From NCBI GenBank assembly GCA_947628875.1, contig CANRBP010000002.1:1-42056 (forward strand): a stretch of DNA of 42,056 nucleotides, in the 5' to 3' direction. Both the position numbers and the translations under genes were made by a program. The notes beneath the pieces were generated by a model. That model was not told the origin of the DNA and made no database searches. It worked only from the letters and a program-made list of their open reading frames with translations. This document shows, piece by piece, positions 31,522-41,790 of the stretch. Each line of letters opens with the position of its first letter. Within the stretch, counting starts at the first letter, position 1. Source of the stretch: an uncultured Lachnospira sp. (lineage in GTDB: Bacteria; Bacillota; Clostridia; Lachnospirales; Lachnospiraceae).

Positions 31522-32613
31522 ATGGCAGAACAAAATATTTTAGCTGGTGATATCACGGTACTCGAACAGGTTATCAGCGATTTTAGGGAACATAATGAAA
31601 AAAAAGACCGTATGGATAAGCTTGTCCAAACCATGCATGACCTGGGAAAAAATATTGATGTAACAGAACGGGAGATGAAGGACGAGATTGATGCCAGGAT
31701 TAAGGCCAGCACGGCATCTATCTGTGAGGGATATGATAAGTCTATTGCGGCGGACAATGTAAAGCTCAAGGATGTCCAAAGCGACCGCGAGAAAGCAAAA
31801 ATGGCCGGGGTCAAAGAGCGGATTGAAAATGAGACGGCTTTTTTAAAAAAAGAAAATATCGATCTGAAGGATCAGATTAAGTCTGCATTTAAGCTTGAGC
31901 AGATACCAATGTTCTGCAGCCGCAAATTTTATCTTGCGTTATTTGGAACAAAGGGAGTATCGGATGCCGTTATCTATCTGGCTGTATTGCTCCTGTTCTT
32001 TACGGCCATACCTCTTGCGCTGTATTTTATTCCTTCATTTCCTGCATGGGGGTACATTGTGTATTACTCAGTGATGGCGCCGCTTGTTTTTTCGGTATAC
32101 AAATGGATTTATGCAAAGACATATGTGCCTCACGCCGAGACGATTCAGGCGGCACGCAGGACAAAAGTTAAGATACGCGTGAACTGCAAAACGATTAAAA
32201 AGATTGAAAAGGGCATCAGAACAGACAAAAATGAAGAAATGTATGGATTGGAAGGGTACGATTATACTATAAATGCAATCCATGATGACATTAGCCGCAT
32301 AGAAGATGAAAAAGCGAAGGCGCTGGACGAATTTGAAAAAACAGTTAAGCCGGATATTATTTCTGAGATTGAGGGGCGCAAGCTTGGCCAGATAGAGCTG
32401 ATGAAAAGCGAACTGGCGAAAAAACAGGAAGAGGCAGCAGCGCTGGACGAATTGACAAAGCGGCAGCGGATCTACATTTCTGCTAACTATGAAGCTTATC
32501 TGGGAAAAGAATTTATGAATGCAGATAAGCTTCAGGAACTCCATGATATCATGAAGTCAGGCGTTGCGGATACGGTTGCCCAGGCGCTTGCGGCATATAA
32601 GGATAAACATTAG
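31522..32613 (+). CDS. Uncharacterised coiled-coil protein with central TM pair
   Basis: 363-aa ORF with RBS; charged helices flank VIYLAVLLLFFTAIPLALYFIP and GYIVYYSVMAPLVFSVYKWIY; no family recognised. Confidence 0.75.
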   Translation: MAEQNILAGDITVLEQVISDFREHNEKKDRMDKLVQTMHDLGKNIDVTEREMKDEIDARIKASTASICEGYDKSIAADNVKLKDVQSDREKAKMAGVKERIENETAFLKKENIDLKDQIKSAFKLEQIPMFCSRKFYLALFGTKGVSDAVIYLAVLLLFFTAIPLALYFIPSFPAWGYIVYYSVMAPLVFSVYKWIYAKTYVPHAETIQAARRTKVKIRVNCKTIKKIEKGIRTDKNEEMYGLEGYDYTINAIHDDISRIEDEKAKALDEFEKTVKPDIISEIEGRKLGQIELMKSELAKKQEEAAALDELTKRQRIYISANYEAYLGKEFMNADKLQELHDIMKSGVADTVAQALAAYKDKH

Positions 32614-33217
32614 GGGAATAATAGCCAAACGGCGTTGAGCAGTAATAACCGTCATGATATGGCATCGGATTGCCGCGGCGGGAATTGTCACATAAGGCAT
32701 TGACAAATACATTTGTGATAATATCCGCCAGCGTCATGATGATAGAGAGACGGGTCGTCTGTAACAGCAGGTTGTCCATCTCTCCGGAAATATTAACGAT
32801 GCCTGTTATATGTAAGTCGCCTATGGCCGGGAGCTGTTTTTTTACTCCGAGGCCAGGTATAAGCGGGCCGGAGCCAAGGGTAATATAACCTACATGTTCC
32901 GCCTTCCCCAAAGATGCATCAACTGCAATAATATATGGATTTTCATGCGATTGCAGGATATTTTCTATCATGTGCTCAAGGTTGGCTGCATGAATTGGGG
33001 AATACAGGGAACCGTATATAGATACATTTTCAAAGTAGTACTTTTTTAACTTGTACCCGACCAGCGGACCAAGGCTGTCTCCAGTGGAACGGTCGCTGCC
33101 GATGCACAGGATCACAAGCGGCCTTGAACCAACCGGTTCGGCCTGCAGTAAATCCAGCAGCTGTGCGCACATATCGAGAGGCGTGTCAGTGCTGGCAGAA
33201 TCAAAATAATATAACAT
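32549..33217 (-). CDS. yyaC: Spore protease YyaC-like protein
   Basis: ILCIGSDRSTGDSLGPLVGYKL, SPIHAANLEHMI, IAVDASLGKAEHVGYITLGSGPLIPGLGVKKQLPAIGDLHITGIVN. Confidence 0.88.
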   Translation of the reverse strand: MLYYFDSASTDTPLDMCAQLLDLLQAEPVGSRPLVILCIGSDRSTGDSLGPLVGYKLKKYYFENVSIYGSLYSPIHAANLEHMIENILQSHENPYIIAVDASLGKAEHVGYITLGSGPLIPGLGVKKQLPAIGDLHITGIVNISGEMDNLLLQTTRLSIIMTLADIITNVFVNALCDNSRRGNPMPYHDGYYCSTPFGYYSPNVYPYMPQAPGQPYPQRLTS

Positions 33218-33506
33218 TGTTCTATTCCTTTCGGATAATATTGTGCCGGATAAGGTTATCTTTGTTATTCCGGATGGACAGAAATCAATATTTGCCTGTC
33301 TACAATATATTTATGTGGAAATTATGTAAATATGTCTTGAATGTTTCGTCAAATAATTTCAGAATAAAACAAAATGTGCGCAAAAAAGAAAAATAAAAAG
33401 AAAAATTTTTTTGACGCTGACAAAAAGTGATAAATTTTTTGCATACAGGGTGCTACGCTATAGACTAACCACTATTCATTTATGGGATCAAGGAGGCGGA
33501 AAGCAC

Positions 33507-34751
33507 ATGATAGAAATTATTTGCGACAGTGAGGAGGAAAACGAAAGCGATGACAGCAAAAAAAATACATCTATCAGAAGACCAAAGAATATTAAGCAGA
33601 TTGGCGATGTGAGTTCTAACCGGAAAATCTATATTGAAGATTATGCGTTTAGTTACATCAATTCTATCGCCTACAGTTCCCCGGATGAAGAGCAGGCCGG
33701 AGTCCTGCTTGGAGAGTGCCAGCGCGCTGATAATGAAAAATGCCTGTTTATCAAAGGAGTGATAAAGGCGAAGCATGTTGAGAACGAAGGAAAACAGGGC
33801 ATTTATTTTGATGAAAAAATATGGAACGGCATATACTCAGATGCCGAAAAATACTTTCCGAATTTGCAGGTGGTTGGGTGGTTTGCAGCGCTGCCAGATG
33901 TTACAGCTGAAAGAATGCAGTATTTAAAGCGTGTCCATATGGACAACTTTGCAGGGAACATGAAGACAATGTATTTAATCAACACCCTGGATAAAGAAGA
34001 AAGCTTTTATTTGTATGAAAACGGAGATCTGCGCCAGCAAAAAGGTTATGTGTGCTTTTATGAGCGCAACTATGAAATGCAGGAGTATATGCTGGAAAAA
34101 CGCGGGCGGCGTTCAGTGGAGAGCCAGGAAAAAGACAGGGTAATGAAATCCATACGCAGCATTATACAGGAAAAAGAAGAACTGCAGCAGCAAAAAAGAA
34201 ATGCGGCGTTTATGTATGGGGTAAGTACATTTATGGTTGTTGTAGTTCTGGTCATAGGAATAAACCTGATGAACAGCTACGAAAAAATGAAAAGCTTTGA
34301 CAGATCCTTAAACAGTATCGTGACTGAGATATCAAACATGAACCAGAAGGAGGCCGGAAATGTAAACGGAGCTGAACAGGATGGCGTGGCAGCGGACTCA
34401 GATGATGTTATACCCGTGCATAAAGTGACAGGCGATGTTTACCCGACAAAAGAGGAAACAGAGCCGGAAAATCCTTCGCAAAATCCGTCAGCAGGCAACA
34501 CGCAGAATACAGAAGCAGACAAAGAGGAGCAGACCGATGAGGCGACAAAACCTGCAAATACAGGGCAGGAGTCATCTATTGAAAATGTCTATCCGGAGTA
34601 CGATACATATGTAGTGCAGCAGGGAGATACTATCATGGGGATCTGCAAACAGCATTATGGCAGCGCATCAAGGTATGAAGATGTGATTGCTTTTAACGAA
34701 TTGGAGGACGCTAATAAATTATATGTTGGACAAGAGTTAAAACTGCCTTGA
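33507..34751 (+). CDS. Single-pass membrane protein: MPN/JAMM-like N-terminal domain, TM, LysM domain
   Basis: YIEDYAFSYINSIA..EEQAGVLLGE..VVGWFAALPDVTAERMQYLKRVHMDNF; TM MYGVSTFMVVVVLVIGINLM; LysM YVVQQGDTIMGICKQHYGSASRYEDVIAFNELEDANKLYVGQELKLP. AAGGAGG RBS supports start at 33507. Confidence 0.8.
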   Translation: MIEIICDSEEENESDDSKKNTSIRRPKNIKQIGDVSSNRKIYIEDYAFSYINSIAYSSPDEEQAGVLLGECQRADNEKCLFIKGVIKAKHVENEGKQGIYFDEKIWNGIYSDAEKYFPNLQVVGWFAALPDVTAERMQYLKRVHMDNFAGNMKTMYLINTLDKEESFYLYENGDLRQQKGYVCFYERNYEMQEYMLEKRGRRSVESQEKDRVMKSIRSIIQEKEELQQQKRNAAFMYGVSTFMVVVVLVIGINLMNSYEKMKSFDRSLNSIVTEISNMNQKEAGNVNGAEQDGVAADSDDVIPVHKVTGDVYPTKEETEPENPSQNPSAGNTQNTEADKEEQTDEATKPANTGQESSIENVYPEYDTYVVQQGDTIMGICKQHYGSASRYEDVIAFNELEDANKLYVGQELKLP

Positions 34752-34834: not shown

Positions 34835-36094
34835 ATGGCTGATATCATATCAGGGCACTCCAGATTTAATAAAGGCGGCAATTCATCAACAGAAAAAAAA
34901 GTGATACAGCTTTCGGGGGAACCGCTGCAGAATGACGATTTAGATGAAGAACAGCTGCAAAATAAAATAAAAAGGCACAGGAAAAACAGGATTATCGGCA
35001 CTGTTGTGATTTTGGCGGCCGTGGCGGTTATGGCGCTTGTGATTATGAAAGCAATGGACAACATCACATACAAGGAGTATGTTGTTGAAAACTCGGTAAA
35101 CCGGGACGACAGCCAGTCATCGCGCTATGTGCCTTATGGAGACGGTTATATACGTTACAGTAATGATGGAGTTTCCTACTATGGCAAAAAAGGAAATGCA
35201 ATTTGGAACCAGACGTTTTCAATGCAGAAACCTCAGCTTAAAATATGCGGGGATTGCGTGGCAGTTGGGGATATCAACGGCAGCACCATATACCTGCTTG
35301 ATAAAGATGGAACGATTGGCACGGTTGACACATCGCTGACTATTTCACAGATAGAAGTGGCTCAGCAGGGGGTCGTTGCTGCTGTACTTGAAGATAACGA
35401 AGCCAATTACATCAATCTGTATGACAGGCAGGGGGAACATATATACAGTGTAAAGACAACGCTGGCTGGAGACGGCTATCCGCTGGATATCAGCATTTCT
35501 GACGATGCGACCAAGCTGATAGCATCATACCTATATGTCAGCGGCGAGCAGATTAAGACAAATGTTGTATTTTACAACTTTTCCGAGGTAGGGCAAAACG
35601 AGACAGAGCGTGTAGTAGGCGGATTTAACCACTATGACAGCACAATTGTAGGCGATGTGCATTTTATACGCAAAAACCGCGCAATTGCAGTAGGTGAAAA
35701 TGTGCTGAGCATATACAGCATTAAAGAATATCCTAAACTGGAAAAAGAAATTCCAATAAACAGCAGCATTGAAAGAGTGTTTTTCAGTGAGGACTATATC
35801 GGATTAGTATTGGAAAATACGGATTCCGGAGATGTATACAAGCTGCTGGTTTATTCGTCCAATGGAGACAAAGTGTTAGAGACGACATTTAATACGCAGT
35901 ATGACCAAATCAAGTTTGACGGCAAAAGCGTGCTGATGAGCAACTCAACATCTTTTGCGCTGCTGAACTTTAATGGTAAAGTTTTGACAAACCAGACAGT
36001 GGAATTGCCTATAGAAGGCATATTGCCAACAGGAATAAGAGGATATTATATTTTGGTCAATTCAAAATATATTCAAAACATTCGGTTAAGATGA
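34835..36094 (+). CDS. DUF5711-like membrane-anchored beta-propeller-type protein
   Basis: N-terminal TM VILAAVAVMALVIMKAM, then repeated strand pattern (VAVGDINGSTIYLLDKDGTIGTV, NLYDRQGEHIYSVKT). Confidence 0.7.
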   Translation: MADIISGHSRFNKGGNSSTEKKVIQLSGEPLQNDDLDEEQLQNKIKRHRKNRIIGTVVILAAVAVMALVIMKAMDNITYKEYVVENSVNRDDSQSSRYVPYGDGYIRYSNDGVSYYGKKGNAIWNQTFSMQKPQLKICGDCVAVGDINGSTIYLLDKDGTIGTVDTSLTISQIEVAQQGVVAAVLEDNEANYINLYDRQGEHIYSVKTTLAGDGYPLDISISDDATKLIASYLYVSGEQIKTNVVFYNFSEVGQNETERVVGGFNHYDSTIVGDVHFIRKNRAIAVGENVLSIYSIKEYPKLEKEIPINSSIERVFFSEDYIGLVLENTDSGDVYKLLVYSSNGDKVLETTFNTQYDQIKFDGKSVLMSNSTSFALLNFNGKVLTNQTVELPIEGILPTGIRGYYILVNSKYIQNIRLR

Positions 36095-36106: not shown

Positions 36107-36883
36107 ATGAGCTGGGTATTTGCAGCAGTGCTGTTGATTTTTTGCGTGTGCGCATATATAGGGTGGAAAAAGGGTATCATTCGGATTGTATTGTCGCTGG
36201 CAACGCTTGTAGTAACATTATTTGCGTCCGTGATATTAACGCCGGTTATTGGAGGCGCGCTCAGGTCAGGGACAAGCTTGTATGATAACCTTGAGCGTTC
36301 GGTTTACATTACGCTGCTGGAAAATGAAAATAACCTGTTTGGCGGCGCAGTTGATGATGTAGTCGGTGATGATGCAGGAGAATTGCAGGATACGGGACTG
36401 GTGGAAACAATAAACGGGTATATCACGCAAATCGGCGAAATGCTGCATCTGCCGGAGTCAGTTACGAACAGCATAAGCGCATCGGTTATCCGGGATAAGG
36501 CGGAAAGCATAGCAGGAACCGGTGCGGCACACATAAAAAGCATCATAATGGCTGTACTGGCAGTGCGCCTGGCAAACATAATCTTTAATGCAATTATTTA
36601 TATGATTGTTTTTATCATTATATACGTGGTGCTGAAAATAATTGTAGCACTTACAAACCTCGTCAGCCGCCTGCCGGTGATTCATCAGGCAAACAAAATT
36701 GGCGGGTTCGCTGTGGGCATTGCGGAGGGACTGGTGATAGTGTGGCTGCTGTTTGTGGTTATCACAGCCTGCGGCAATATGCAGTGGGCGGCCGATGCAT
36801 TGGCTGACATCGGAGGCAACCCGGTATTGGCCGGCCTCTACGACCATAACCTGATCATGAAAATGGCATTTAAAGGCTTGTAG
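36107..36883 (+). CDS. CvpA-family membrane protein
   Basis: FCVCAYIGWKKGIIRIVLSLATLVVTLFASVILTPVIG, LVSRLPVIHQANKIGGFAVGIAEGLVIVWLLF. Confidence 0.82.
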   Translation: MSWVFAAVLLIFCVCAYIGWKKGIIRIVLSLATLVVTLFASVILTPVIGGALRSGTSLYDNLERSVYITLLENENNLFGGAVDDVVGDDAGELQDTGLVETINGYITQIGEMLHLPESVTNSISASVIRDKAESIAGTGAAHIKSIIMAVLAVRLANIIFNAIIYMIVFIIIYVVLKIIVALTNLVSRLPVIHQANKIGGFAVGIAEGLVIVWLLFVVITACGNMQWAADALADIGGNPVLAGLYDHNLIMKMAFKGL

Positions 36884-36913: not shown

Positions 36914-38392
36914 ATGGGTAATGCGTTGGAAAGCAATACAAGACTTACACAGAATGACACGCCGATTCATCGGGCGCTTGAAGAACAGCGCCTGAACAGG
37001 CTGGCACATTTTGACGTGCCGGGACACAAGGGCGGCCGTGGAAATAAGGAGCTGAAAGAATTTCTGGGGGCGGACTGCGTAAAACTGGATATGAATTCTA
37101 TGAAGCCGCTGGATAACCTTTGCCATCCGGTATCGGTTATAAAGGACGCACAGATGTTGGCGGCAGAGGCTTTTGGCGCAGATGAGGCATTTTTTATAGT
37201 CAATGGCACAACAGCCGCCGTACAGGCAATGATAATGGCGACAACGGTTGCCGGGGACAAGATAATCATGCCCAGGAACGTCCATAGGAGTGCAATCAAC
37301 GCGCTTGTAGTAAATGGCGCGCTTCCGGTATATGTCAATCCGGGCGTAAATCAGCGGCTGGGGATACCGCTGGGCATGTCCGTGAAAGATGTGGAGACTG
37401 CCATTCATGAAAATCCTGATGCAAAGGCCATACTTGTGAATAACCCTACTTATTACGGCATCTGCTCGGATTTAAAGCAGATTGTGGATATGGCGCATGA
37501 CGCGGGCATGTTGGTGCTGGTAGATGAGGCACATGGAACGCATTTTTATTTCAGCGATACATTGCCGGTATCTGCAATGAAAGCAGGAGCTGACATGTCG
37601 GCGGTCAGTATGCATAAAACAGGCGGTTCTCTTACGCAGAGCTCGATTCTGCTGACGCGCAATACGGTGAATGCGGATTATATCAGGCAGATTATCAACC
37701 TTACGCAGACAACCAGCGGTTCGTACCTGCTTTTGTCCTCGCTGGATATTGCGCGCAAAAACATGAGCCTGAACGGAAAATTTTACAGCAGCAAAATGAT
37801 AGAGTTTGCAAGCTATGCCAGGGAGGAGATTAACAAGCTCGGCGGTTACTATGCATTTGGCGAAGAATTAATTGATGGGGATACGGTATTTGATTTTGAC
37901 AGGACGAAACTTTCCGTGCATACGCGTGACATTGGCCTGGCAGGCATTGAGGTTTATGACCTGCTTCGCGATGATTACGGGATTCAGATAGAATTTGGCG
38001 ATATTGGGAACATTCTCGCAATTATTTCAGGCGGAGACAGAAATCTTGAGATAGAACGGCTTATTTCTGCACTGTCAGAAATCAAGCGGCTTCATGAGCG
38101 GGAAAAATCAGGTATGTTTGATCACGAATATATTAATCCTAAGATTGTCATGGGACCTCAGAAAGCATTTTTCAGCAAAAAGCTGTCGCTTGCTATTGAG
38201 GAGAGCGCGGGAGGCATTTGCAGCGAGTTTGTTATGTGCTATCCGCCGGGTATCCCGATACTTGCGCCGGGGGAAATGATCACACAGGAAATTATCCATT
38301 ATATTGAATATGCCAAGGAAAAAGGCTGCCTGGTAACAGGCACACAGGATATGAATGTGGAAAATATCAACATAGTTGATACCAGCGCATGA
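36914..38392 (+). CDS. speA: Orn/Lys/Arg decarboxylase family (fold type I PLP); probable arginine decarboxylase (TTG start at 36926 possible)
   Basis: HFDVPGHKGG, FFIVNGTTAAVQAMIMA, VDEAHGTHFYFS, SMHKTGGSLTQSS; adjacent to speE. Confidence 0.85.
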   Translation: MGNALESNTRLTQNDTPIHRALEEQRLNRLAHFDVPGHKGGRGNKELKEFLGADCVKLDMNSMKPLDNLCHPVSVIKDAQMLAAEAFGADEAFFIVNGTTAAVQAMIMATTVAGDKIIMPRNVHRSAINALVVNGALPVYVNPGVNQRLGIPLGMSVKDVETAIHENPDAKAILVNNPTYYGICSDLKQIVDMAHDAGMLVLVDEAHGTHFYFSDTLPVSAMKAGADMSAVSMHKTGGSLTQSSILLTRNTVNADYIRQIINLTQTTSGSYLLLSSLDIARKNMSLNGKFYSSKMIEFASYAREEINKLGGYYAFGEELIDGDTVFDFDRTKLSVHTRDIGLAGIEVYDLLRDDYGIQIEFGDIGNILAIISGGDRNLEIERLISALSEIKRLHEREKSGMFDHEYINPKIVMGPQKAFFSKKLSLAIEESAGGICSEFVMCYPPGIPILAPGEMITQEIIHYIEYAKEKGCLVTGTQDMNVENINIVDTSA

Positions 38393-38411
38393 TTTTGGAG
38401 GAAAAGATAGA

Positions 38412-39278
38412 ATGGAATTGTGGTATACGGATAAACATACCCAAAACGTACAGCTGACCATGAAAGTGAAAAACCAGATTGCGAGCGTGGAGAGCGAATA
38501 CCAGCGCATTGATATCCTTGATACGGTGGAATTTGGGAAAGTCCTGGTGCTGGACGGCGAGCTTATGATTACGCAGAAAGATGAATTTATTTATCATGAG
38601 ATGATTACTCATGTTCCGATGGCTGTTCATCCGCATGTGGAAAATGTTCTGGTGATTGGCGCCGGAGACGGGGGAACGATACGTGAATTGACAAAATACG
38701 ATACAATTAAAAATATTGACATGGTTGAAATAGATAAATCTGTTACGGACATGTGCCTTCAGTATTTTGAGGAAACTTCCTGCAAGCTGTCGGACTCTCG
38801 CGTACATATGCATTTTGAGGAAAGTATCCGCTTTGCGCGCATGAAAAAAGACGAGTACGATTTGATTATAGTTGATTGTGCGGATCCGTACGGCCCGGCA
38901 GAGGGACTGTTTACAAGGGAATTTTATGGCAACTGCTTTAAAGCGCTGCATGAGGACGGCATTTTGATCAATCAGCATGAAAGCCCGTATTATAGCGAGC
39001 ATTCGAGGACAGTCCAGAAAGCGCACAAGCATATACAACAGGTATTTCCGTACAGTACGGTTTACCAGTGCCACATTCCGTCATACCCGTCCGGGCATTG
39101 GCTGTTTGGGTTCGCATCAAAGAAATATGATCCGATTAGGGATCTGCACGAAGAAGCATGGAACAGGCTGGGTATTAAAACAAAATATTACAATACAGAT
39201 TTGCACAAAGGGAGCTTTTACCTGCCGACTTATGTGAAAGAATTACTCGGCATGACAGGAGAAATAAAAAATATATAA
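38412..39278 (+). CDS. speE: Polyamine aminopropyltransferase (spermidine synthase)
   Basis: GELMITQKDEFIYHEMITHVP, VIGAGDGGTIREL, DLIIVDCADPYGPAEGLFTREFY. Confidence 0.95.
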   Translation: MELWYTDKHTQNVQLTMKVKNQIASVESEYQRIDILDTVEFGKVLVLDGELMITQKDEFIYHEMITHVPMAVHPHVENVLVIGAGDGGTIRELTKYDTIKNIDMVEIDKSVTDMCLQYFEETSCKLSDSRVHMHFEESIRFARMKKDEYDLIIVDCADPYGPAEGLFTREFYGNCFKALHEDGILINQHESPYYSEHSRTVQKAHKHIQQVFPYSTVYQCHIPSYPSGHWLFGFASKKYDPIRDLHEEAWNRLGIKTKYYNTDLHKGSFYLPTYVKELLGMTGEIKNI

Positions 39279-39308
39279 CAGGCTGGATGCAGCAGACAGG
39301 AGGAAAGC

Positions 39309-40526
39309 ATGGGAAAAGCGCTTATAATTGGAGCAGGCGGCGTAGCTGGCGTAGCGGTTCATAAATGTTGTCAGAACCCGGAAGTTTTTGAGGAAATCTG
39401 TATTGCAAGCAGGACAAAATCAAAATGCGATGCATTAAAACAGGATTGTGAGCAGCGTTATGGGACAGGCGCCGGCAAAACAAAAATAACAACAGCGCAG
39501 GTTGACGCCGACCATGCAGATGAGCTGATCGCGCTGATACAAAAAGAAAAGCCGGATATTGTCATGAATATAGCACTTCCTTATCAGGATTTGACTATTA
39601 TGGACGCGTGCCTTGCAACCAAAACGAATTATATGGATACGGCTAACTATGAGCCGCCTGAAACTGCTCATTTTGAGTATTCGTGGCAGTGGGCATACAG
39701 GGAGCGTTTTGAGCAGGCCGGAATTACGGCGCTTCTCGGATCAGGGTTTGACCCGGGCGTTACCGGAGTTTTTTCCGCTTATGCGCAGAAACATTATTTT
39801 GATGAAATTGAATATATTGACATTTTGGACTGCAACGGCGGCGATCATGGATACCCGTTTGCGACTAATTTTAACCCGGAGATTAATATACGGGAAGTTT
39901 CGGCGAAGGGAAGTTACTGGGAAAACGGCCGCTGGATAGAAACAGAGCCAATGGAGATTAAGCGCGTATATAATTTTGACGGCGTGGGAGAGAAGGATAT
40001 GTACCTTTTGCACCATGAAGAAATAGAGTCGCTGGCCATCAATATAAAGGGCGTGAAAAGAATCCGTTTCTTTATGACATTTGGGCAAAGCTACCTTACG
40101 CATCTGAAATGTTTGGAAAATGTGGGCATGACATCTATTGAGCCGATTGAATTTGAAGGGCATTCAATTATACCGCTGCAGTTTTTAAAAGCAGTATTGC
40201 CTGATCCGGCTTCACTTGGGCCGAGAACGGTAGGAAAAACTAATATTGGATGCATTTTCCAGGGGCAAAAAGACGGAAAGCCGGTTTCATATTACGTTTA
40301 CAATATGTGCGACCATCAGGAATGCTATAAGGAAGTCGGGGCGCAGGCAGTATCATATACTACCGGCGTGCCTGCCATGATCGGGGCAATGATGCTGATG
40401 ACCGGAAAATGGAACAAGCCGGGCGTTCACAATATAGAAGAGTTTGACCCGGATCCGTTTATGGACGCACTCAACAGGTTTGGCCTGCCGTGGGTGGAAA
40501 ATTTTCATCCTCAGCTGGTTGACTGA
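39309..40526 (+). CDS. Saccharopine dehydrogenase family; probable carboxynorspermidine dehydrogenase
   Basis: ALIIGAGGVAGVAVHKC, DYAFSD-independent family pattern LLGSGFDPGVTGVFSAYAQKHYFDEI; lies between speE and nspC. Confidence 0.87.
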   Translation: MGKALIIGAGGVAGVAVHKCCQNPEVFEEICIASRTKSKCDALKQDCEQRYGTGAGKTKITTAQVDADHADELIALIQKEKPDIVMNIALPYQDLTIMDACLATKTNYMDTANYEPPETAHFEYSWQWAYRERFEQAGITALLGSGFDPGVTGVFSAYAQKHYFDEIEYIDILDCNGGDHGYPFATNFNPEINIREVSAKGSYWENGRWIETEPMEIKRVYNFDGVGEKDMYLLHHEEIESLAINIKGVKRIRFFMTFGQSYLTHLKCLENVGMTSIEPIEFEGHSIIPLQFLKAVLPDPASLGPRTVGKTNIGCIFQGQKDGKPVSYYVYNMCDHQECYKEVGAQAVSYTTGVPAMIGAMMLMTGKWNKPGVHNIEEFDPDPFMDALNRFGLPWVENFHPQLVD

Positions 40527-40560
40527 TTGTGCCATGCAAAAAGAATGAATGGGGCGCGTC

Positions 40561-41790
40561 ATGGAAGATATTAATTTTAGCAAAATACCAACGCCTGCAT
40601 ATATTGTTGATGAGCGGCTGCTGGAGCAAAATCTGAAATGCCTGAATATGGTTATGAAAAAAACAGGCTGCAAAATATTGCTTGCACAAAAAGGGTTTTC
40701 CATGTTCTCCCTTTATTTAATTATCAAACAGTATCTGAGCGGCACTACGGCAAGTTCTCTTTATGAAGCCAGGCTTGGCAGAGAAGAAATGGGCGGGGAG
40801 ACGCATATTTTTTCCCCGGCTTATAAAGAAGAAGAATTTGCGGAAATAGCAGAAATTTGCGACCATATTGTGTTTAATACGGTCAGGCAGTATCAAAAAT
40901 TCAAGGAGCAGGCAAAGGCTGCCGGCTGCGGCTGCGGCCTGCGCGTCAATCCGGAATATGCAGAAGTGGAACATGAAATATATAATCCGTGCTGCGCCGG
41001 TTCAAGGCTTGGAACTACAGCGGCAATGCTTGAGCAGGCGCTGGCGCAGGACATGGCAGCATTGGACGGGATTGAGGGGCTTCACTTTCATGTTATGTGT
41101 GAGCAGAATGCGGATACGCTGGAAAGAGTGCTCATGCATGTAGAAGAAAAATTCGGCTGGCTGTTGGCTTTGCCTGAAATCAAATGGGTAAATTTTGGCG
41201 GAGGCCATCATATAACGCGCTCAAACTATAATATAGAATTATTGATAAAGTGCATAAATTACATTCAGGACAGATATCAGGTGCAGGTGTATCTTGAACC
41301 TGGGGAAGCAGTTGCGCTCAATGCCGGTTATCTGGTTGCGCAGGTGATGGATATACACGAGCAAGCTTTTGAAGTTACAAAAGAGATGCTTCCGCATAAC
41401 GCAGATTCAGAAGAAGCAGGATATATGGCGCGAGCAGCCATTCTCGATGCATCAGCAGCGTGCCATATGCCAGATGTCCTGGAAATGCCATATCGGCCTG
41501 AAATAATTGGTGCGAGACGCCCGGGTGAGCTGCAGAAACGCTATCCTTATATTTACAGGTTTGGCGGAAATACATGTCTTGCAGGAGATATCATAGGTGA
41601 TTATGCTTTTGACCATGAACTTATTCCTGGAGAAAAGCTGGTATTTTGCGATATGGCTCACTACAGCATGGTAAAGAACAATACTTTTAATGGCATTGCT
41701 CTTCCTCAGATTTGGGCATACAATGAAAAAAAAGGCGCATATCCGGTCAAAACATTTACTTATAAAGATTTTAAGTCGAGGCTCAGCTGA
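40561..41790 (+). CDS. nspC: Carboxynorspermidine decarboxylase
   Basis: IPTPAYIVDERLLEQNL, ILLAQKGFSMFS, GLRVNPEYAEVEHEIYNPCCAGSRLGTT, WVNFGGGHHITR, YLEPGEA. Confidence 0.93.
   Translation: MEDINFSKIPTPAYIVDERLLEQNLKCLNMVMKKTGCKILLAQKGFSMFSLYLIIKQYLSGTTASSLYEARLGREEMGGETHIFSPAYKEEEFAEIAEICDHIVFNTVRQYQKFKEQAKAAGCGCGLRVNPEYAEVEHEIYNPCCAGSRLGTTAAMLEQALAQDMAALDGIEGLHFHVMCEQNADTLERVLMHVEEKFGWLLALPEIKWVNFGGGHHITRSNYNIELLIKCINYIQDRYQVQVYLEPGEAVALNAGYLVAQVMDIHEQAFEVTKEMLPHNADSEEAGYMARAAILDASAACHMPDVLEMPYRPEIIGARRPGELQKRYPYIYRFGGNTCLAGDIIGDYAFDHELIPGEKLVFCDMAHYSMVKNNTFNGIALPQIWAYNEKKGAYPVKTFTYKDFKSRLS

Follow-up and report, generated by a model that had tools for sequence, protein, structure and literature searches.

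Discussion of non-catalytic MPN domains has usually centred on eukaryotic complexes. The locus considered here lies in a stretch of 42,056 nucleotides (hereafter the window) of a gut bacterium, an uncultured Lachnospira sp., where a preliminary description had proposed a wall protein with an MPN/JAMM-like domain that lacks the catalytic histidine pair. This raises the question whether a bacterium can have a dead JAMM domain tied to its cell wall and, if so, what kind of ancestor it came from and what it might do. Order, genus and phylum refer throughout to those of the window's organism, which among named organisms is closest to Lachnospira and related Lachnospiraceae.

Domain layout and MPN fold

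The protein consists of 414 residues and contains all the residues quoted in the preliminary description (Table 1). The ATG at 33507 was preferred as its start over an in-frame TTG further upstream (33411), because relatives share the N-terminus MIEII. From N- to C-terminus the protein comprises an MPN domain, one transmembrane (TM) segment, a disordered linker and a LysM domain, an order that recurs in the full-length AlphaFold2 (AF2) model, where a single helix runs across the membrane and the LysM domain is folded. The single TM segment leading to a LysM domain was thus correctly described. The MPN domain is predicted to be cytoplasmic on basis of the positive-inside rule and the lack of a signal peptide, whereas the LysM domain is expected to bind peptidoglycan.

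Table 1. Features of the locus and its neighbours (positions in the window)
Feature	Position	Strand	Evidence
Divergent gene on the upstream side, for the spore protein YyaC (DUF1256)	32549..33217	-	NCBIfam spore_YyaC E=1.1e-57
Ribosome-binding site AGGAGGCGG, AGGAGG-type, 7 nt 5' of ATG 33507	33491..33499	+	read in sequence
Whole gene, MPN(pseudo-JAMM)-TM-LysM protein, 414 aa	33507..34751	+	homologs in 46/61 related genomes
MPN-fold domain, residues 27-199	33585..34103	+	Pfam JAB, profile vs PDB, AF2, Foldseek
Glu62, retained JAMM glutamate position	33690..33692	+	alignment with intact homologs
Degenerate JAMM motif GWFAALP, residues 124-130 (GWxHTHP in intact relatives)	33876..33896	+	alignment
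Leu140, where the metal-binding Asp would sit	33924..33926	+	alignment
Long helix predicted for residues 210-281, in one piece from the juxtamembrane part through the TM to the extracytoplasmic part	34134..34349	+	full-length AF2 model
Sole TM segment, about residues 232-256, QQQKRN just before	34200..34274	+	hydropathy maximum 2.4
Acidic/Pro-rich disordered linker, residues 282-365, fast-evolving	34350..34601	+	AF2 pLDDT <50 over most
LysM domain, residues 368-414	34608..34748	+	Pfam LysM E=1.6e-7, above cut-off; pLDDT about 92
Conserved neighbour on the downstream side: DUF5711 protein with a single hydrophobic segment at its N-terminus	34835..36094	+	Pfam DUF5711 E=2.7e-124
CvpA-family membrane protein, third gene of conserved set	36107..36883	+	Pfam Colicin_V E=1e-14

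The assignment of the N-terminal domain to the MPN fold was borne out along several lines. Pfam JAB (PF01398) matches residues 37-135 with E=5e-4; the window sequence alone scores 20.3 bits and stays under the gathering cut-off of 22.5, which concerns the scoring threshold and not the fold itself. Six intact relatives exceed this cut-off (29.7-43.7 bits), JAB is matched by 24 of 36 family members (best E=1.6e-6), and the breadth of these matches, together with the spread of the gene in related genomes, places the signal above chance. A family profile built from the 36 aligned N-terminal-domain sequences found in the PDB the Caldiarchaeum Rpn11-like chain 6fjv (E=3.4e-5) and DrBRCC36 (2.9e-3), with weaker matches to Rpn8, Rpn11 and CSN6 at 0.03-0.1, interspersed with chance nanobody matches. 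The AF2 model of the domain, made with the same alignment, has a mean pLDDT of 84.7; most of the core exceeds 90, and the core blocks lie at 86-97 except for one loop block at 75. The preliminary description would have been refuted by a predicted structure without MPN fold; with this model, however, Foldseek placed the MPN domain of Rpn8 first among the PDB entries (E=2e-9, probability 1.0), and the 50 matches listed are MPN-containing structures throughout, with proteasome-lid, CSN, eIF3, Rpn11 and BRCC36 entries. Target-normalised TM-scores reach about 0.65, a moderate value, in a model with disordered ends.

Single-sequence searches were of little use by comparison with profile and structure, which settled the fold: phmmer against the PDB returned weak nanobody matches alone, which are spurious. 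The weak Pfam matches to Parvo_coat, PFF1_TM, DUF6377 and similar families were dismissed as due to chance or composition.

The active site and the descent of the domain

Active JAMM proteins have GWxHxHP...S..D at the positions where residues 124-140 of the window protein read GWFAALPDVTAERMQYL, from which it follows that both histidines and the aspartate are missing. More specifically, A127, L129, M137 and L140 replace H, H, S and D in the alignment to intact homologs, E62 is present, and the JAMM (MPN+) motif E / HxHxxxxxxxSxxD is absent from the protein. The reported absence of the histidine pair is confirmed and extends to the aspartate; we consider the MPN fold and the loss of its ligands as good as certain. 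Judged from these residues, the domain should not be capable of JAMM catalysis.

The protein belongs to a family that spans the phylum. About 97 JAMM-domain relatives were gathered, most of them with a TM segment and LysM; both are present in 72 of the 92 sampled members and in 45 of the 47 from the own order. The window protein shares the layout of these LysM-associated JAMMs, i.e. a JAMM/MPN domain, a TM segment and a C-terminal LysM in one protein. Genomes with a match are common among near relatives (46/61) and amount to 28/391 in a sample of the class and 33/399 in a sample of the phylum. Profile searches reached intact members, including ones outside the set used to build the profile (L084, E=2e-57). 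Moreover, in an unrooted tree of these 92 bacterial domains, computed after removal of the motif columns, a well-supported branch (99/92) separates the 47 own-order rows from all others, and the window protein groups with bacterial JAMM-LysM proteins, the intact ones being among the nearest neighbours. Searches and tree both indicate common descent of the window protein with the intact members.

HxH is found in none of the 47 own-order members and is kept in 28 of the 45 sampled members outside the order, mostly with the full E/HxH/S/D motif (e.g. GWFHTHPGFGIFLSKYD in L068, GWIHTHPDFGIFLSEND in L066 and GWQHTHPGYGIFLSNYD in L076). Its presence changes at least seven times on the tree of 92 domains. 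We speak of loss and not of gain because regaining a multi-residue metal site is rare; the tree alone is not the argument. Within the own order the first histidine is kept in 7/47 members, e.g. GWMHTQPGYG (L044), a glutamine occupies the second position in 16/47, and the ligand strings range from EHQSD (L044) and EHQTD (L053) to EQQNY and the EALML of the window protein. The survival of intermediates such as GWMHTQPGYG suggests a stepwise decay of the motif. The window protein is very probably a pseudoenzyme that descended from an intact JAMM of its LysM-associated family.

Other variants were found as well. In L067 and L093 the second histidine has become a cysteine (GWFHTCP) in genomes without E2, which may be a further early stage in the loss. 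A second ligand-less group (L162, L165, L168 and L169, with GWYGVRxGW and similar) adjoins or lies near the flagellar genes FlaG and FliD. L072, L073 and L100 have no LysM and have lost the first histidine (GSYSTHP); in L171 and L172, the longer loci of this group, the gene adjoins that of the NAD-dependent DNA ligase.

Operons of the intact relatives and neighbourhood of the gene

Several intact relatives occur in operons for ubiquitin-like conjugation. An E2 is encoded in ten of the genomes with intact members, usually beside a YukD-type ubiquitin-like protein (Ubl) and a ThiF E1 and often with a RING protein (domain matches: YukD 3e-16, ThiF 2e-56, UQ_con 4e-8, Prok-RING 9e-14). The loci L137, L138, L140, L157, L159, L160, L161 and L164 contain varying mixes of YukD-type Ubl, ThiF E1, E2 (HPN...C), trypsin-like protease, FHA-domain protein and RING; in G530 about 32 kb separate the E2 from the JAMM. 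The intact relatives in such operons presumably trim a Ubl precursor or strip the Ubl from conjugates. The Ubl of L157 has a C-terminal extension past ...ITAGA, which would need cutting to free its tail and would make a natural JAMM substrate. In L157, L159, L163 and L164 a RING/zinc-ribbon gene is flanked by a tandem pair of membrane JAMM paralogs, of which mostly one has LysM and the other lacks it. Genes for Ubl, E1 and E2 lie alongside, and in L163 the contig end cuts the operon part.

An E2 (UQ_con) above cut-off is present in 10 of 80 genomes, all of which carry an HxH member; in terms of tree rows, it accompanies 10 of the 28 with HxH versus none of the other 64. Since the phylogenetically independent events are too few, with two supported independent pairs and no significance, no statistical link between loss of HxH and absence of E2 is claimed. 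Eighteen intact members occur in genomes without E2, so not every intact relative serves such an operon: the link is seen for the part of the intact set that is nearest to the window's clade on the tree. Within the own order no E2 above cut-off was found in 42 genomes, and no Ubl, E1 or E2 gene lies near the window gene; as the window genome is 72% complete, the absence of E2 there rests on its complete relatives. It is probable that the ancestor of the window pseudoenzyme was a JAMM in a Ubl operon.

The gene now has other neighbours. Among 33 own-order loci, DUF5711 lies immediately downstream in 20 and within three genes in 23, then mostly followed by CvpA, and YyaC lies divergently upstream in 19. 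Genomes without the MPN gene retain DUF5711, mostly with CvpA, so that the gene set is not obligate and DUF5711 is ruled out as an obligate partner. That DUF5711 or CvpA is a partner of the MPN domain is a tentative suggestion, and a literature search on DUF5711 yielded nothing relevant. The window also contains a gene (31522-32613) for a 363-aa protein without Pfam family whose synteny is conserved in the genus and which, like its relatives, resembles a coiled-coil membrane protein. Downstream of CvpA the window contains polyamine genes (36914-41790), encoding an Orn/Lys/Arg decarboxylase, a spermidine synthase, a carboxynorspermidine synthase-like protein and a carboxynorspermidine decarboxylase.

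The partner MPN-like protein that the preliminary description had suggested looking for was not encountered: PF01398 finds the window gene alone in its genome, with no second, catalytic MPN. Prok-JAB proteins with a length of about 150 aa occur sporadically, and the other short Prok-JAB matches, in frames of about 230-250 aa, are probably RadC. An obligate MPN+/MPN- pair is unlikely on these grounds.

Possible roles and comparison with known systems

The pattern of sequence constraint bears directly on function. Conservation within the protein peaks in the MPN domain, whose mean identity to genus relatives is 71%, against 67% for the TM segment, 57% for LysM and 27% for the linker (here residues 257-366). 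In the MPN region dN is 0.03-0.16; as dS is near or past saturation, the computable ratios of 0.01-0.06 are rough. A domain without active site that is nevertheless more conserved than LysM points to a function other than JAMM catalysis. This argues against a sporulation or envelope factor in which LysM would be essential and the MPN domain a passive relic, since a relic would decay first; we consider that reading unlikely, although the divergent YyaC spore gene adjoins in 19 of the 33 loci.

Two further explanations would give the dead pocket a more active part, and we deem both very unlikely. The MPN domain might bind a YukD-type Ubl, e.g. of a type VII secretion system, without cutting it and so hold the machine at the wall. 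Indeed, YukD-type Ubls adjoin intact relatives, and the search for ubiquitin-like partners that had been proposed found YukD above cut-off in two own-order genomes; however, any match at all was obtained in 4 of 27 such genomes, all 27 of which carry the MPN-LysM gene, and the gene persists without any Ubl in most genomes tested. Alternatively, the domain might be an altered enzyme whose metal site has changed or whose activity needs no metal. The glutamate is retained in 24 of the 47 own-order members and G124-W125 in the pocket region is nearly invariant, but about half of the own-order members have lost the glutamate as well, and the positions of the former ligands, occupied mostly by Ala and hydrophobic residues in the genus, differ freely from member to member within the order. 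The retention of Glu62 in the window protein does count against our own explanation and leaves room for unusual activity.

Taken as a whole, we think it probable that a wall-tethered Ubl isopeptidase has turned into a pseudoenzyme docking scaffold anchored by LysM. The ancestor would have been a membrane-anchored, LysM-bearing JAMM isopeptidase of the phylum; both the zinc ligands and the genes for conjugation would then have disappeared from the own order, while strong constraint preserved the fold. A scaffold function of the MPN domain itself, which seems reasonably probable because the metal-binding active site was lost and the fold kept, would consist in offering a surface on which a partner from the cytoplasm or the membrane docks, with DUF5711 and CvpA as the best genetic candidates. 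LysM would pin the complex to peptidoglycan and the flexible linker would span the space outside the membrane. The more far-reaching view, to which we lean slightly, is that the whole order made the isopeptidase a dedicated scaffold. It would thereby have repeated independently the MPN+ to MPN- step of COP9, eIF3 and the proteasome lid; intermediates of this step would still be alive, and the Ubl machinery of the ancestor would have disappeared. The order would then have its own non-catalytic MPN domain tied to peptidoglycan, and sequence relatives would document how an intact isopeptidase became a dead domain. In addition, catalytic-looking JAMMs anchored to membrane or wall occur beside genes for YukD-type Ubl, E1, E2 and RING, so that the envelope as a site of bacterial Ubl conjugation becomes a testable question.

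Bacterial operons with YukD-like Ubl, E1, E2, RING and JAB were reportedly described by Burroughs, Iyer and Aravind in 2011. Intact homologs of the window protein fill the JAB position in such operons, whereas in the window clade the active site is lost and so are the partners in the operon. RadC-type JAB proteins belong to the same JAMM superfamily and are probably also encoded in these genomes, but they have no LysM anchor and are not close in sequence.

The combination of JAMM, TM segment and LysM, thought to be new in the preliminary description, is not, since it is widespread in the phylum and was mentioned in 2018: in the available part of Fuchs et al. 2018 (PMC6043591), 'bacterial lysM-associated JAMM sequences' are named once, in the legend of Fig. 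1, as omitted from the cluster map. This was the sole find of a literature search for bacterial Ubl systems with LysM, to the extent of the texts available; Iyer et al. 2006 (PMC1779556) do not mention LysM. By their JAMM/MPN and LysM domains, the intact relatives of the present analysis match this description. The window clade differs in that it has no zinc ligands and that its gene lies by DUF5711, CvpA and YyaC and not in a Ubl operon; this pseudo-JAMM clade appears to be new. BilABCD likewise combines a bacterial JAMM (BilC) with Ubl, E1 and E2, but BilA has two ubiquitin-like domains as opposed to the single YukD-type Ubl of the operons here, and the available part of its description mentions neither LysM nor a membrane anchor (PMC11354881).

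Finally, Rpn8, CSN6 and eIF3f, to which the domain had been likened, share with it the MPN fold without JAMM ligands, Rpn8 being the top fold match. A specific kinship with these subunits is not supported: the grouping with bacterial JAMM-LysM proteins on the tree of bacterial domains argues for a separate loss in bacteria, and the window protein has no PCI complex and is fused to a TM segment and LysM. As catalysis was lost inside a bacterial family of largely intact JAMMs, some of them in Ubl operons, the resemblance to the eukaryotic MPN- subunits is most likely convergent.
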